From NCBI GenBank assembly GCA_025362795.1, contig JANYFE010000007.1, positions 1 through 44,163 of the forward strand: 44,163 nucleotides of DNA. Reading direction: 5' to 3'. This stretch comes from Rhodobacterales bacterium. GTDB taxonomy: Bacteria; Pseudomonadota; Alphaproteobacteria; Rhodobacterales; Rhodobacteraceae. How positions within the stretch are numbered: position 1 is the first letter of the stretch; each line of letters begins with the position of its first letter. The translations under genes were made by a program, and so were the position numbers. The notes under the pieces were generated by a model. It searched no databases. It was given only the letters and a program-made list of their open reading frames with translations, and was not told the DNA's origin. Shown here in pieces: positions 12,535 through 17,990 of the stretch.

Positions 12535-13428
12535 ATGGACTGGGACAAGCTGCGCATATTTCATGCAGTGGCCGACAAGGGCAGTCTGACCCATGCCGGG
12601 GAAGTTCTGCATCTGAGCCAAAGTGCCGTCAGCCGCCAGATCCGGGCGCTGGAGGAAAGCCTGTCGGTGACGCTGTTTCACCGCCATGCGCGCGGACTGA
12701 TCCTGACCGAGCAGGGCGAGTTGCTGTTTGATGCGACGAGCCAGATGGTGCGGCGGCTGGATGCGGCGGCGGCGCGGATCCGCGACAGCGAGGACGAGGT
12801 TTTCGGCGAGTTGCGGGTGACGACGACGACCGGCTTTGGCACCTTGTGGTTGGCGCCGCGTCTGGCGACGTTATATGCCAAGTATCCGGCGCTTAAGATT
12901 GATCTGATGCTGGAAGAACGGGTGCTGGACCTGCCGATGCGCGAGGCCGATGTGGCGATCCGCATGAAAGAGCCGACCCAGTCGGACCTGATCCGCAAAA
13001 GGCTGATGCAGATCCGGATGCGGCTATATGCGACGCCGAAATATCTGGCCGAACATGGCACGCCCAAGACGATGGACGACATGACGCAGCACCGGCTGAT
13101 CAGCCAGCACGCGGGCACGGCGCAGGTCGCGGCGGGGGCCTTGCTGGTCGCGGAACTGATGACGCATGACATTCCGTCCACCCTGACGGTGAACAACTAT
13201 TTCGGCGTGCTGCAAGGTGTTCTGAACCATCTGGGCGTGGGCGTGCTGCCCGACTACATCACCGAGGATTTTCCGGAACTGGTGCGGGTGCTGCCGGATG
13301 TCGAAAGCGGCGAGGTGCCGGTGTTTCTGGCCTATCCCGAAGAATTGCGCCATTCCAAACGGGTGGCGGCGTTCCGCGATTTCGTCGTGGAAGAGATCAT
13401 GGAATATCGCAAGCGCCAGCAGGAATAA
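12535..13428 (+). CDS. LysR-family transcriptional regulator
   Basis: The 297-residue product starts at ATG 12535, with GGGGGAG at 12521-12527 as ribosome site. The N-terminal winged helix-turn-helix is classical ([20 protein letters not shown], then [19 protein letters not shown]). The C-terminal part is a periplasmic-binding-protein-like effector domain ([20 protein letters not shown] ...). The effector is unknown. It is divergent from murI across about 160 bp, the usual setting for a regulator that also controls its own promoter. Downstream lies a structured, terminator-ended intergenic region with a candidate sRNA on the same strand. Confidence 0.9.
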
Positions 13429-13478
13429 GCCGCATAAGCAGGCCCGCCCCCTGCTCCGCCCGCGTGATGCCGCCAGTG

Positions 13479-13505
13479 GCCGCCATGCAGGGACTGCATA
13501 GCGGC
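13479..13505. promoter_or_regulatory. Imperfect 27-bp palindrome upstream of candidate sRNA
   Basis: GCCGC-C-ATGCAG (13479-13490), a GGA centre, then CTGCAT-A-GCGGC (13494-13505) form an 11-bp pairing with one mismatch. The inner part ATGCAGGGACTGCATAGCG (13485-13503) matches 16 of 19 positions of the box upstream of the DUF1127 genes (25626-25644). The right half can also pair with 13533-13541 (TAGCGGCAA with TTGCCGCTA), so two exclusive structures are possible if this region is transcribed. Confidence 0.55.
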
Positions 13506-13530
13506 AATTCCGAACCAGCAGGCCCGGGGA

Positions 13531-13544
13531 TGTTGCCGCTAACA
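13531..13544. promoter_or_regulatory. LacI-type operator-like site overlapping the sRNA -35
   Basis: TGTTGCCGCTAACA differs at two positions from the symmetric sequence TGTTAGCGCTAACA. It resembles the site before gap (24508-24521). It overlaps the proposed -35 hexamer TTGCCG (13533-13538), where a repressor would block transcription. Confidence 0.5.
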
Positions 13545-13560
13545 GGACGCCCCCTTATAT
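13533..13560 (+). promoter_or_regulatory. Putative sigma-70-like promoter of candidate sRNA
   Basis: TTGCCG (13533-13538) and TTATAT (13555-13560) are separated by 16 bp. The expected start of transcription is at about 13567, directly before the 5' hairpin of the sRNA. Confidence 0.5.
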
Positions 13561-13566
13561 CAGAAA

Positions 13567-13647
13567 GCGAGGCAGTGATTGAGTTCTCTCTCACTGCCTC
13601 ATACCTCCCTGTTGGACTTGGCCGAGCGCAAGCTCGGCCTTTTTTTT
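13567..13647 (+). ncRNA. Candidate small RNA with anti-Shine-Dalgarno linker
   Basis: The predicted RNA is about 80 nt. It begins with a 10-bp stem, GAGGCAGTGA (13569-13578) with TCACTGCCTC (13591-13600), extended inside by GAG/CUC around a UUCU loop. A single-stranded linker AUACCUCCCUGUUGGACUU follows (13601-13619). It contains ACCUCC, the anti-Shine-Dalgarno core. The RNA ends in a GC-rich terminator with eight T residues. No open frame of useful length fits it. The layout (hairpin, seed-like linker, terminator) is that of a trans-acting sRNA. CCUCC-loop sRNAs (CcsR/cuckoo type) are known in Rhodobacter sphaeroides, but the motif here is in a linker rather than a loop. A 3'-UTR structure of the LysR gene is the alternative. 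Confidence 0.55.
13620..13647 (+). terminator. Rho-independent terminator
   Basis: GGCCGAGC (13620-13627) pairs perfectly with GCTCGGCC (13632-13639) around a GCAA tetraloop, followed by T8 (13640-13647). It ends plus-strand transcription between the LysR gene/sRNA and the convergent ECF sigma gene. Confidence 0.9.
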
Positions 13648-13679
13648 GGGTTTTGTGTGAAATTCCCGGGGTTTGCCTG

Positions 13680-14891
13680 TCAGTTGGGCAGCAGATTCCG
13701 ACGGCTGCGCAGATAGGCGGCATCGGCGGAAGAGGCGGCCAGGGCAATCGCGCGGTCATAGGCGGCGCGGGCTGCGTCAAGAGAATCGGCGCGGGTCAGG
13801 TATTCGGCGAGGGCGGCGTGGTAGGGTTGGTAGTCTTGCAAGACCGGCGCGAGGTCGGCAAGCATGGCCAGCGCCTGTCCTAACGCGCCGGTTTCGGCAA
13901 GGGCGACGGCGTGGTTCAATTGCACCACCGCGGTCGGTTCCAGCCGCAGCAGACTGGCGTAAAGCGCCGCGATTTGCGGCCAGTCGGGCGTGTCGCCCTG
14001 CACGTGACAGGCGGCGATCGCGGCTTTGGTCTGGTAGGGGCCGGGTGTGTGTCGGGTCATGGCGGTGTCGATCAGGGCCAGTCCTTCGGCGACGGCGGCA
14101 CGATCCCAGAGGCTGTGGTCCTGGGCTGCCAGGGGGACGGTGGCGCCCGCCCCATCGGTCCGGGCCGCCGCACGGGCGTGGGTCAGCAGCATCAGGGCCA
14201 GACAGCCTTCGACCTCGGCCTCGCCGGGACGCAGGTCTGACAGCAGACGGGCCAGAAAGATCGCTTCGGCACACAGGTCACGGGGTTCGGCGGGGCCAGC
14301 GGTGTAGCCCGCGTTGAAGATCAGATAGACCACCGCCAGCACCGATTGCAGACGGTCTGCCCAATCCTCGGGATCGGGCACCGCAAAGGGGATACCCGCC
14401 TCGCGCAGGCGGGTTTTGGCGCGGGTCAGGCGTTGCGCCATCGTCGGTTCGCTGTCCAGAAAGGCGCGGGCAATTTCGGCGGTGGACAGGCCTGCGATGG
14501 TGCGCAGGGTCAGTGCCACGCGGCTTTTGGCGTCCAGCGCCGGATGGCAGCAGGTGAAGATCAGGCGCAGGCGTTCGTCGGTGATCAACTGCGCCTCCTC
14601 TTCGGCTTCGTCGCGGGCGAGGACCGTCAGGGCGGCAGTTTGGGCGGCGTCCCGTTGCATCCGGCGCAGGCGGTCAATTGCCTTGCGGAACGCAACGCGG
14701 ATCAGCCAGGCCATCGGATTGTCGGGCGCACCGCTGCGCGTCCAGTGAATGAGGGCCGAGGCGGCGGCGTCTTGCAGCGCGTCCTCGGCCAGTTGGAAGT
14801 CGCGCACCCGGGCGATCAGGGCGGCCAGAATGCGCCCCCGGTCGGCGCGCAGGGCCTGGGTCAGCGCTGCAACCGGACCGGGGGTGGGCAT
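13680..14891 (-). CDS. ECF42-type RNA polymerase sigma factor with C-terminal extension
   Basis: The product of about 403 residues has sigma region 2 (RILAALIARVRDFQLAEDAL, then WLIRVAFRKAIDRLRR) and region 4 (LRLIFTCCHPALDAKSRVAL, then TIAGLSTAEIARAFL). A long helical, TPR-like C-terminal extension follows (GYTAGPAEPRDLCAEAIFLA ... YHAALAEYLTRADSLDAARAAYDRA), as in ECF42 sigma factors. These lack an anti-sigma factor and are encoded with DGPF (YCII-type) proteins; the C-terminal extension controls activity. The ATG at 14891 overlaps the YCII stop as TGATG, so translation is coupled. A matching promoter is visible before the first gene of the operon. Confidence 0.9.
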   Translation of the reverse strand: MPTPGPVAALTQALRADRGRILAALIARVRDFQLAEDALQDAAASALIHWTRSGAPDNPMAWLIRVAFRKAIDRLRRMQRDAAQTAALTVLARDEAEEEAQLITDERLRLIFTCCHPALDAKSRVALTLRTIAGLSTAEIARAFLDSEPTMAQRLTRAKTRLREAGIPFAVPDPEDWADRLQSVLAVVYLIFNAGYTAGPAEPRDLCAEAIFLARLLSDLRPGEAEVEGCLALMLLTHARAAARTDGAGATVPLAAQDHSLWDRAAVAEGLALIDTAMTRHTPGPYQTKAAIAACHVQGDTPDWPQIAALYASLLRLEPTAVVQLNHAVALAETGALGQALAMLADLAPVLQDYQPYHAALAEYLTRADSLDAARAAYDRAIALAASSADAAYLRSRRNLLPN

Positions 14892-15238
14892 CAATAAACC
14901 ATGACCGGGCGCAGCTCGATCGTGCCAAAGCCCGCGGTCGGGATCATCGCCGCGACCTTGATGGCGGCATCCAGATCGGGCACCTCGATCAGGTAATAGC
15001 CGCCCAGATGTTCCTTGGTTTCGGCAAACGGTCCATCCATCGTTTCAACCTTGCCCCCGCGCAGGCGGACCGAGGTTGCGGTTTCGACCGGTTTCAGCCC
15101 GTCACCGGCAACAAAGGCACCCCGGGCTTTCAGTTCGGCGGTGAAGCTGGTGTAGCCCGCCATCATCGCCGAAAATTCAGGTGTGCCATAGCGCGGGGCA
15201 TTTTCGGGGGCGGCGTAAATCAAGGCAAGATATTGCAT
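14891..15238 (-). CDS. YCII/DGPF domain protein
   Basis: The 115-residue protein has the DGPF signature in VETMDGPFAETKEHLGGYYL and the general YCII-related fold. DGPF proteins are the constant genomic partners and regulatory targets of ECF41/ECF42 sigma factors. Their biochemical role is unknown. The gene lies between the MAPEG gene (20 bp upstream) and the sigma gene, with which it overlaps. Confidence 0.9.
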   Translation of the reverse strand: MQYLALIYAAPENAPRYGTPEFSAMMAGYTSFTAELKARGAFVAGDGLKPVETATSVRLRGGKVETMDGPFAETKEHLGGYYLIEVPDLDAAIKVAAMIPTAGFGTIELRPVMVY

Positions 15239-15830: not shown

Positions 15831-17990
15831 ATGACCGAACCGGACATCACCCCCGACCTGATCGCCAAGCACGGGTTGAAGCCCGACGAATACCAGCGGC
15901 TGTTGCAGATCGTGGGCCGGGTGCCGACCTTCACCGAACTGGGCATTTTCAGTGCGATGTGGAACGAGCATTGTTCGTATAAATCGTCGAAGAAATGGCT
16001 GCGGACACTGCCCACAACCGGGCCACAGGTGATTTGTGGGCCGGGTGAGAATGCCGGGGTCGTGGATATTGGCGACGGGCAGGCGGTGATCTTCAAGATG
16101 GAGAGCCACAACCACCCCAGCTATATCGAGCCGTATCAGGGTGCCGCGACGGGCGTGGGCGGCATTCTGCGCGATGTGTTCACGATGGGCGCACGGCCGA
16201 TTGCGGCGATGAATGCGCTGTCGTTCGGGCTGCCCTCTCACCCCAGGACCGCGCATATCGTCAAGGGAGTGGTCGAGGGTGTCGGCGGCTATGGCAACGC
16301 TTTTGGCGTGCCGACCGTGGGCGGCGAGGTGCGGTTTCACCGCAGCTATAACGGCAATTGTCTGGTCAATGCGTTTGCCGCCGGGATCGCCAATACCGAC
16401 AAGATTTTCTACTCGGTCGCGTCGGGGGTCGGGATGCCGGTTGTCTATCTTGGGGCAAAGACCGGGCGCGATGGGGTGGGCGGGGCGACGATGGCCAGCG
16501 CCGAGTTTGACGACACGATCGAAGAAAAACGCCCAACGGTGCAGGTCGGCGACCCGTTCACCGAAAAGCGCCTGCTGGAGGCGTGTCTGGAACTGATGGC
16601 GTCTGGCGCGGTGATTTCCATTCAGGATATGGGGGCGGCCGGCCTGACCTGTTCGGCGGTGGAAATGGGCGACAAGGGCGGTTTGGGGATACGCCTGCAA
16701 CTGGATGCCGTGCCGCAGCGCGAAACCAACATGACCGCCTATGAGATGATGCTGTCGGAGAGCCAGGAGCGGATGCTGATGGTGCTGAAGCCCGAGATGG
16801 AGGCCGCGGCGCGGGCGATTTTCGTGAAATGGGATCTGGATTTTGCCATTGTGGGCGAGACGATTGCCGAGGACCGCTTTCTGATCCTGCATGGCAACGA
16901 GGTGAAGGCCGATCTGGTGCTGTCGCAGCTGTCGTCGTCTGCGCCGGAATATGACCGGCCCTGGGTGGAAACGCCGCCCGCGGCACCGTTGGGCGATGTT
17001 CCCGCGATTGGCGCGATTGAAGGCTTGTCGGTGCTGATCACCGCGCCCAGCTATGCCCATAAAGCGTGGGTGTGGGAACAGTATGACAGTCAGGTCGGGG
17101 CCGACACCCTGCGCCGTCCGGGGATGAGCGCGGGCGTGGTGCGGGTGCATGGGTCGGGCAAGGCCTTGGCCTTCACGTCGGACGTGACGCCGCGCTATGT
17201 GAAGGCCAACCCGTTCGAGGGTGGCAAGCAGGCGGTGGCGGAAGCCTACCGCAATCTGTGCGCGGTAGGGGCCAAGCCCTTGGCGACAACGGACAATCTC
17301 AACTTCGGCAATCCAGAAAAGCCAGAGATCATGGGGCAATTGGTCGGGTCATTGCGCGGCATCGGGGCGGCTTGTGTCGCGCTGGATATGCCAATCGTGT
17401 CGGGCAACGTGTCGCTGTACAACGAGACGGACGGCACCGGGATTCTGCCGACGCCGACGATTGGCGCGGTGGGGATACTGGCGTCACTGGACGAGTTGAT
17501 CGGCACGCAGGTCAAGGATGGCGATGTGGCGGTGCTGATTGGGGCTACGGCTGGTCATCTTGGACAGTCGGCGCTGCTGGCCGAAGCGTTCGGGATCGAG
17601 GCGGGCGATGCGCCGCCGGTCGATCTGGTGGCCGAGCGGCTGCATGGCGCGTTTGTGAGGGCCAACCGCAGGCTGATCCACGCCTGCAGCGATTTGTCGG
17701 ATGGCGGGCTGGCGCTGGCGGCGTTCGAGATGGCCGAGGGCGCGGGGCTGGGTCTGGTGCTGACGGCGGGGGATACCCCTACCCTGTTCGGCGAAGATCA
17801 GGCGCGCTATCTGGTGGCCTGTTCCGCAGGTCAGGCCGGCAAATTGCTGGCCCACGCCGCAGAGGTTGGAGTTCCGGCGGCCCGCGTCGGCAAGTTTGGC
17901 GGTTCGGTGGTGCGATTCGGTGCGGATGAGGCGCCGATGAAGGCGCTGTCGGCCAGCTATCGCGGCGCTTTCGCGCGGGCGGTGGAATGA
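15831..17990 (+). CDS. purL: Phosphoribosylformylglycinamidine synthase II
   Basis: Small PurL is the synthetase subunit that, with PurQ and PurS, converts FGAR to FGAM in purine synthesis. At 719 residues the size is right. Family segments are clear: the catalytic His region [15 protein letters not shown] (His at about 47), [11 protein letters not shown]-type ATP/Mg binding ([20 protein letters not shown]), [13 protein letters not shown] and [23 protein letters not shown] lies 6 bp before the ATG. The stop overlaps the ATG of the GNAT gene. Confidence 0.97.

Follow-up and report, generated by a model that had tools for sequence, protein, structure and literature searches.

The window (the whole stretch of 44,163 nucleotides analysed here, from a Rhodobacteraceae genome) holds a gene for a LysR-type regulator and, downstream of it, a small RNA gene, with the following features, which are all on the same strand:

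12535-13428 (+): gene for a LysR-type regulator of 297 aa without cysteine, the reciprocal best match of A. tumefaciens LsrB/VtlR
13485-13499 (+): inverted repeat ATGCAGGGACTGCAT of the form ATGC-N7-GCAT (T-N11-A, LysR-type box), with its centre near -75 relative to the inferred start; putative site for LysR binding
13496-13508 (+): GCATAGCGGCAAT, with 6 of the 7 fixed letters of the LsrB/VtlR site GCAT-N3-TG-N3-T, from comparison with the published consensus
13532-13560 (+): promoter-like -35 (GTTGC) and -10 (CTTATAT), together a weak match to CTTG[AC]-N17-CCTAAAT
13567-13647 (+): sorY gene, small RNA of about 81 nt, from an end-to-end match to RF02651 and a SorX match
13569-13600 (+): 5' hairpin, 10 outer pairs and 3 inner pairs by fold
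13601-13619 (+): linker of 19 nt, ATACCTCCCTGTTGGACTT, with the anti-Shine-Dalgarno seed CCUCCCUGUUGGACUU
13620-13647 (+): Rho-independent terminator, probably common to the lysR transcript; 8-pair stem 13620-13639, T8 13640-13647

On the opposite strand, a gene for a sigma factor with a DUF6596 domain (13680-14894, -) adjoins a YCII-domain gene (14891-15238, -), a combination that we take to be the make-up of the ECF42 sigma factor group.

The segment 13567-13647 (+) matches the SorY family (RF02651) over model positions 1-83 of 83, with 64.0 bits and an E-value of 8e-13 for the 301 bases searched, and the SorX family (RF02784) also matches this locus, at 44.7 bits against a cut-off of 46.6 (Rfam, E-value mode). 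Family model and gene order together establish the segment as sorY in this Rhodobacteraceae genome; in other words, the RNA is one that is already known. At 64 bits, the window's copy stays below the gathering score that Rfam sets for SorY (111 bits), and a scan of the whole window with Rfam at gathering scores gave no matches. This score is a curation cut-off and no biological feature, and was not treated as defining. At E 0.01 the SorY model matches 140 of the 149 genomes scanned from the family, the window's own among them; some of these matches are SorX-like second copies, and only one genome, G051, exceeds the gathering score. SorY is under-annotated: the Rfam cut-off hides nearly the whole family.

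The genome G051 is very probably R. sphaeroides, because its SorY match begins at 1,632,645, 3 bases past the start reported for SorY in that species (1,632,642; PMC6238624), and every comparison of G051 with R. sphaeroides made here rests on these SorY coordinates. The window's own match begins at 13570; since the offset of 3 bases is then the same in both, the start at 13567 agrees with that of R. sphaeroides SorY, assuming that G051 is R. sphaeroides. What is more, a LysR gene lies directly upstream of SorY in G051 (L273), as in the window. SorY of R. sphaeroides is reported to have its own promoter and its own start (PMC6238624), to be recovered with Hfq by co-immunoprecipitation and to be RpoHI/RpoHII-dependent; its induction by singlet oxygen is reported for this species only. 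The window's genome has one copy of SorY. The other match there is SorX (L003:2327-2400; G000:C37, about 17326-17399), which with 69.5 bits is over the Rfam cut-off and stands after an OmpR-type response regulator gene (type read from the translation), as in R. sphaeroides, where SorX is reported as a 3'-UTR product of an OmpR-type gene (PMC6238624).

The fold of 13567-13647 has an energy of -40.3 kcal/mol, compared with -20.8 +/- 3.0 for 200 dinucleotide shuffles, none of which was as good (z -6.5). With 8 more bases included, z is -6.0, and three C's of the linker then pair with GGG past the T run. In the centroid structure the linker ATACCTCCCTGTTGGACTT is unpaired, and the minimum-energy structure has only a 2-pair hairpin there. 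Conservation was followed in 50 SorY loci, namely the 30 top matches to the SorY model and 20 more good ones, the window (L016) being one of the 50. In all of them 15 linker bases are identical and CCTCCCTGTTGGACT is found, this string being unchanged across 46 aligned copies (L021, L023, L024 and L029, with shorter 5' hairpins, were left out, and the window replaces L016); the loci had to hold a CTCCC-type core, and the conservation of the linker is thus partly by choice. The 5' hairpin is in place with z < -2 in 47 of the 50 loci (mean -3.4), as judged from single-sequence folds, which lean towards pairing, and from shuffles that kept base composition only. It persists while its sequence varies, with up to six pair types at single positions, and in every locus 1 to 5 bases separate the end of the 5' stem from CTCCC. 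Pair counting on a plain MAFFT alignment was dropped: the 5' hairpin was misaligned there, and RNAalifold gave no 5' stem.

An earlier note on this DNA had proposed an sRNA gene with promoter-like sequence and an anti-Shine-Dalgarno linker, and sequence elements, fold and conservation support it in this. The positions it gave for a -35/-10 pair with a 16-base spacer, the 5' hairpin, the 19-nt ACCUCC linker, the terminator and the T8 run are borne out, and the check that it suggested, for compensatory stem changes beside a constant ACCUCC linker in relatives, gives a positive result (hairpin in 47/50, linker in 50/50). Its view of the RNA as a different design next to the CcsR family does not stand, the same design being already that of SorY/SorX (RF02651/RF02784) of R. 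sphaeroides.

Turning to the sequence before the RNA, the -35 and -10 letters in the window are TTGCCG (13533-13538) and TTATAT (13555-13560), separated by 16 bases, and a plain sigma-70 scan found no promoter at sorY. A CTTG followed by a CCTAAAT-like -10 is present in 44 of the 50 SorY loci, with a spacer of 17 in 42 and at a near-constant distance before the linker, where the counts are those of the best-scoring pair within a fixed stretch and are without control. The -35 of the window, GTTGC, which its genus mate L144 has as well, ranks among the poorest of the 50. Further upstream stands the ATGC-N7-GCAT box, which in the window follows the LysR stop codon. Its exact form occurs in 37 of the 50 loci (window included), as compared with a mean of 0.88 and a highest value of 4 in 200 rounds of shuffling; with at most one mismatch it occurs in 49 (shuffle mean 10.9, highest 20), and in 48 its distance to the CTCCC downstream is 103 to 124 bases. 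The consensus to which the overlapping element at 13496-13508 was compared, GCAT-N3-TG-N3-T, is the published LsrB/VtlR site (PMC8844928, PMC7486931). For S. meliloti, an LsrB motif at -61 to -49 and the promoter CTTGAC-N17-CTATAT are reported for abcR1, and the RpoH1 promoter CTTGAA-N16-CCTATAT for abcR2 (PMC8844928).

What, then, is the regulator encoded beside sorY? Compared with the PDB, the LysR protein gives E 8.4e-71 for 9HH1 and 1.3e-30 for the next match, 9HH1 being LsrB of A. tumefaciens (PMC11975290). In the reverse direction, LsrB finds the SorY-adjacent LysR gene in the window's genome with E 1.8e-71, the next gene following with 7.6e-34. In a tree with 42 orthologue rows, the 8 Rhodobacteraceae LysR rows form one branch (support 96/97); one outgroup row (OUT_L225, branch 7.2) falls inside the orthologue set, a placement that we take for a long-branch artefact. 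On best match and tree we claim the window's LysR as the LsrB/VtlR counterpart, in a changed gene order and not as part of a full LsrB unit. In the class, exactly one LsrB counterpart per genome was found at E 1e-60 in 102 of the 190 genomes sampled, and these single-copy counterparts argue against an LsrB restricted to Rhizobiales, as which a 2025 paper describes it (PMC11975290). Two records bearing a rhizobial-type lsrB, L142 (titled Bacillus subtilis) and L099 (Arenimonas), are probably mislabelled or contaminated. A cysteine pair of the C144/C273 type, residues whose roles in LsrB have been described (PMC11975290), is present in 7/7 rows from Rhizobiaceae and kin, compared with 0/35 of the other orthologue rows. 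The window's LysR has no cysteine at all, and therefore a thiol switch within the protein is excluded and another signal is needed. The SorY-adjacent LysR may, in other words, sense otherwise than LsrB.

The LysR gene lies upstream of SorY in 28 of 30 loci (window included) and is no incidental neighbour of it; in one further SorY locus, LysR is found about 1.5 kb away when a wider stretch is read. In other families the gene order is trxB-lysR-sRNA. Namely, trxB is directly upstream of LysR in 26 of 27 loci (the best-matching 27 outside the window's family) and in 79 of 80 loci of Rhizobiaceae and kin, as against 0/28 Rhodobacteraceae loci, in which 113 to 516 bases upstream of LysR were covered. 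No TrxB match was obtained in the 44-kb window, nor was trxB found within the 9-19 kb around SorY in three relatives. Within the family, trxB has an lrp gene close by in 30/30 of the best lrp loci (own included); in the window's genome an lrp-type gene stands divergent from trxB (G000:C36:8979-9494, L173). Because trxB and lrp are together in all of these 30 loci, trxB seems to have become separated from the LsrB counterpart in this family.

Past the LysR gene, 28/28 Rhodobacteraceae loci, 16/26 loci of other families and 34/80 loci of Rhizobiaceae and kin have a CCTCCC-type motif and, after it, a T run, an arrangement that occurs neither on the opposite strand nor inside the LysR gene. A profile of the other families' lysR-linked sRNAs, built from 19 sequences of 16 loci, matches all 28 Rhodobacteraceae SorY loci at E 10 or better and 22 of them at 1e-3; it matches none of the 80 rhizobial AbcR loci and nothing on the opposite strand. 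As far as sequence comparison goes, this demonstrates that SorY is akin to the lysR-linked RNAs that other families have. In L037-L063 the lysR-linked small RNA is typically ACGTCTCCCAGACGTGAAGCCTCCCTGTT, with an anti-Shine-Dalgarno motif in a hairpin loop and another in the linker, and Rfam gave only weak SorX, SorY and suhB matches at the 17 of these 27 loci that were scanned. In the rhizobial loci the RNA after LysR is ar15/AbcR in the three scanned, and its core is present in 75/80. Sequence kinship between SorY and AbcR was likewise considered and was not found by the profile (0/80); AbcR agrees with SorY in place, regulator and published mode of action only.

As for targets, G051 has nine DctP-type genes, and the ribosome site of one of them shows the strongest pairing with the linker (-28.7 kcal/mol, z -4.4). 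The product of this gene matches PDB 2HZK/2HZL over the whole length (E 7e-255), a protein that we take to be TakP; the PDB lists another transporter name. The gene takP is a reported SorY target in R. sphaeroides (PMC6238624). The predicted pairing joins CCUCCCU with AGGGAGG, UGGAC with GUCCA and GGC with GCC, and when linkers were shuffled around a constant CCUCCC core, 1% of them did equally well (1.4% for a shorter linker). The window's genome (G000, rated 100% complete) gave no DctP or DctM TRAP match, which, to our knowledge, is unusual for the family; therefore, SorY targets there must differ from takP. The best single candidate target found in it is a solute-binding-protein gene on C29, with a predicted pairing of -24.0 (z -5.0) that was reached by 0/500 shuffles; the gene was picked from a genome scan and this significance is overstated. 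At E 1e-60 it has a counterpart in 0/60 relatives.

Are solute-binding-protein genes, then, targets as a class? Their predicted linker pairing is better than that of 39 control ORFs (called mechanically, some perhaps false) with p 1.7e-5, and with the CCUCCC core fixed p becomes 0.15. On this ground we rejected them as an enriched target class, and their advantage reflects stronger ribosome sites. The set used 28 of 30 places (the fragments L250 and L267 were left out), 27 of them scored, L259 being without a start codon. One solute-binding-protein gene (G000:C13:28635-29500; L250, L252) is matched as two pieces 17 bases apart, perhaps through a frameshift. The lrp gene was rejected as a conserved target, 8.6% of shuffles being as good in the own genome and the mean z being -0.3 over 30 loci (own included). 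Also rejected was a genome-wide excess of linker-complementary sites: 181 were counted with at most 3 mismatches (SorY and SorX included), compared with 189 for the reversed pattern, and these counts leave the earlier suggestion of a broad effect on GGAGGU sites unsupported.

Compared with SorY of R. sphaeroides, the window's copy has the same full-length match, linker CAUACCUCCCUGUUGGACUU, hairpin, terminator, position of the promoter-like sequence and upstream LysR gene, whereas its 5' stem sequence and terminator loop are different, its -35 is weaker and no TRAP target was found in its genome. SorX of R. sphaeroides (RF02784) shares a nearly identical linker and terminator module but stands after the OmpR-type gene, not beside SorY's lysR. 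The CcsR sRNAs carry a CCUCC motif and, as CcsR1-4 of R. sphaeroides, are stress sRNAs like SorY; they are described as a set of four homologues that are transcribed together with ccaF1 and processed, whereas the window has a single gene with lysR upstream and a promoter-like sequence of its own. AbcR1/AbcR2 (ar15, RF02345) of Rhizobiaceae and kin lie directly downstream of the LsrB/VtlR gene, as the window's sorY does, and are reported with a LysR box, anti-Shine-Dalgarno motifs and transporter targets (PMC8844928), but they are about 115 nt long, with two motifs, often in tandem, and have no common sequence with SorY by profile. In particular, RF02345 gave no match up to E 10 at 13400-13700 and none in 61 genomes of the family; no control genome matched in that search, yet the model finds L064, L101 and L136.

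Could RpoH-type sigma factors alone control SorY, with the adjacent LysR gene and the box serving another function? SorY, SorX and CcsR1 are all described as RpoHI/RpoHII-dependent in R. sphaeroides, and the promoter resembles CTTGA-N17-CCTAAAT in most SorY loci. However, the box holds its place relative to the sRNA and in the window lies beyond the LysR stop codon, it is present also at L008, where the 19 kb read gave no LysR match, and the rhizobial LsrB counterpart is reported to activate abcR1 from a similar box (PMC8844928). We therefore regard sole control by RpoH as a serious though doubtful possibility. A separate question is whether the RNA might arise chiefly from the 3' UTR of the lysR mRNA, in the manner of SorX, which shares the linker and is derived from the 3' UTR of its OmpR-type gene in R. 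sphaeroides (PMC6238624). A single terminator does seem to close both lysR and sorY, no further terminator-like site being found on the + strand from the lysR stop to the sorY terminator in a scan of 13300-13800. Given the promoter and start of its own reported for R. sphaeroides SorY and the promoter-like sequence conserved in SorY loci, a 3'-UTR origin is quite improbable.

The linker invites a further explanation, in which the main role of the RNA would be that of a sponge partner for another RNA, or of a blocker of GGAGG ribosome sites in general. A seed of 6 bases could find many partners, and in Caulobacter CrfA is reported to sponge SisA-D through a CCUCCC core (PMC12559287), but 15 invariant linker bases exceed what an anti-Shine-Dalgarno function needs, and linker-complementary sites are not in excess in the genome; we consider such a role unlikely. 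Least credible to us is membership in the alpha-r8 family (suhB/MmgR/SisA), whose reported plan is the same (PMC12559287): a weak 5' hairpin, UUUCCUCCCU and a terminator, with CCUCCCU single-stranded in suhB/MmgR and SisA-D as here. The suhB model does match weakly (24.5 bits, E 0.0039), but this stays under the 41-bit cut-off and is much weaker than the SorY match, and the neighbours in the window are lysR and a sigma factor gene, not a formylglutamate amidohydrolase gene.

Our preferred reading, to which we give a probability of about 0.78, is that 13567-13647 is sorY, read from a stress-type promoter and probably activated by LysR, with a linker that blocks translation of uptake-transporter mRNAs with the help of Hfq; the LysR control and the targets are the parts that we infer. 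Namely, sorY would be transcribed from its own stress-type promoter, a dependence on RpoHI/RpoHII being known only from R. sphaeroides, and the LsrB/VtlR counterpart would probably activate it through the ATGC-N7-GCAT box. In the transcript, the 5' hairpin and the terminator would flank the single-stranded linker UACCUCCCUGUUGGACUU, which in this genome would pair with the ribosome-binding region of selected solute-uptake mRNAs and, together with Hfq, block their translation.

What is new here is that the LysR gene adjacent to SorY is, by sequence comparison, the reciprocal best match of LsrB/VtlR, the activator of AbcR in rhizobia. In the literature searched, the coverage of which leaves out the primary SorY/SorX papers, we found no paper linking SorY to LsrB/VtlR-AbcR. 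We lean, with some reserve, towards a wider interpretation, in which SorY would be the Rhodobacteraceae form of an old alphaproteobacterial trxB-lsrB-sRNA unit, whose LsrB/VtlR-type regulator would drive a short RNA that silences nutrient uptake through an anti-Shine-Dalgarno seed, and AbcR of rhizobia would be the diverged form of the same slot; the rhizobial thiol switch would then be late, and the original signal a metabolite and not peroxide. The finding joins two literatures, that on the photo-oxidative sRNA SorY of Rhodobacter and that on the LsrB/VtlR-AbcR circuit of rhizobia.
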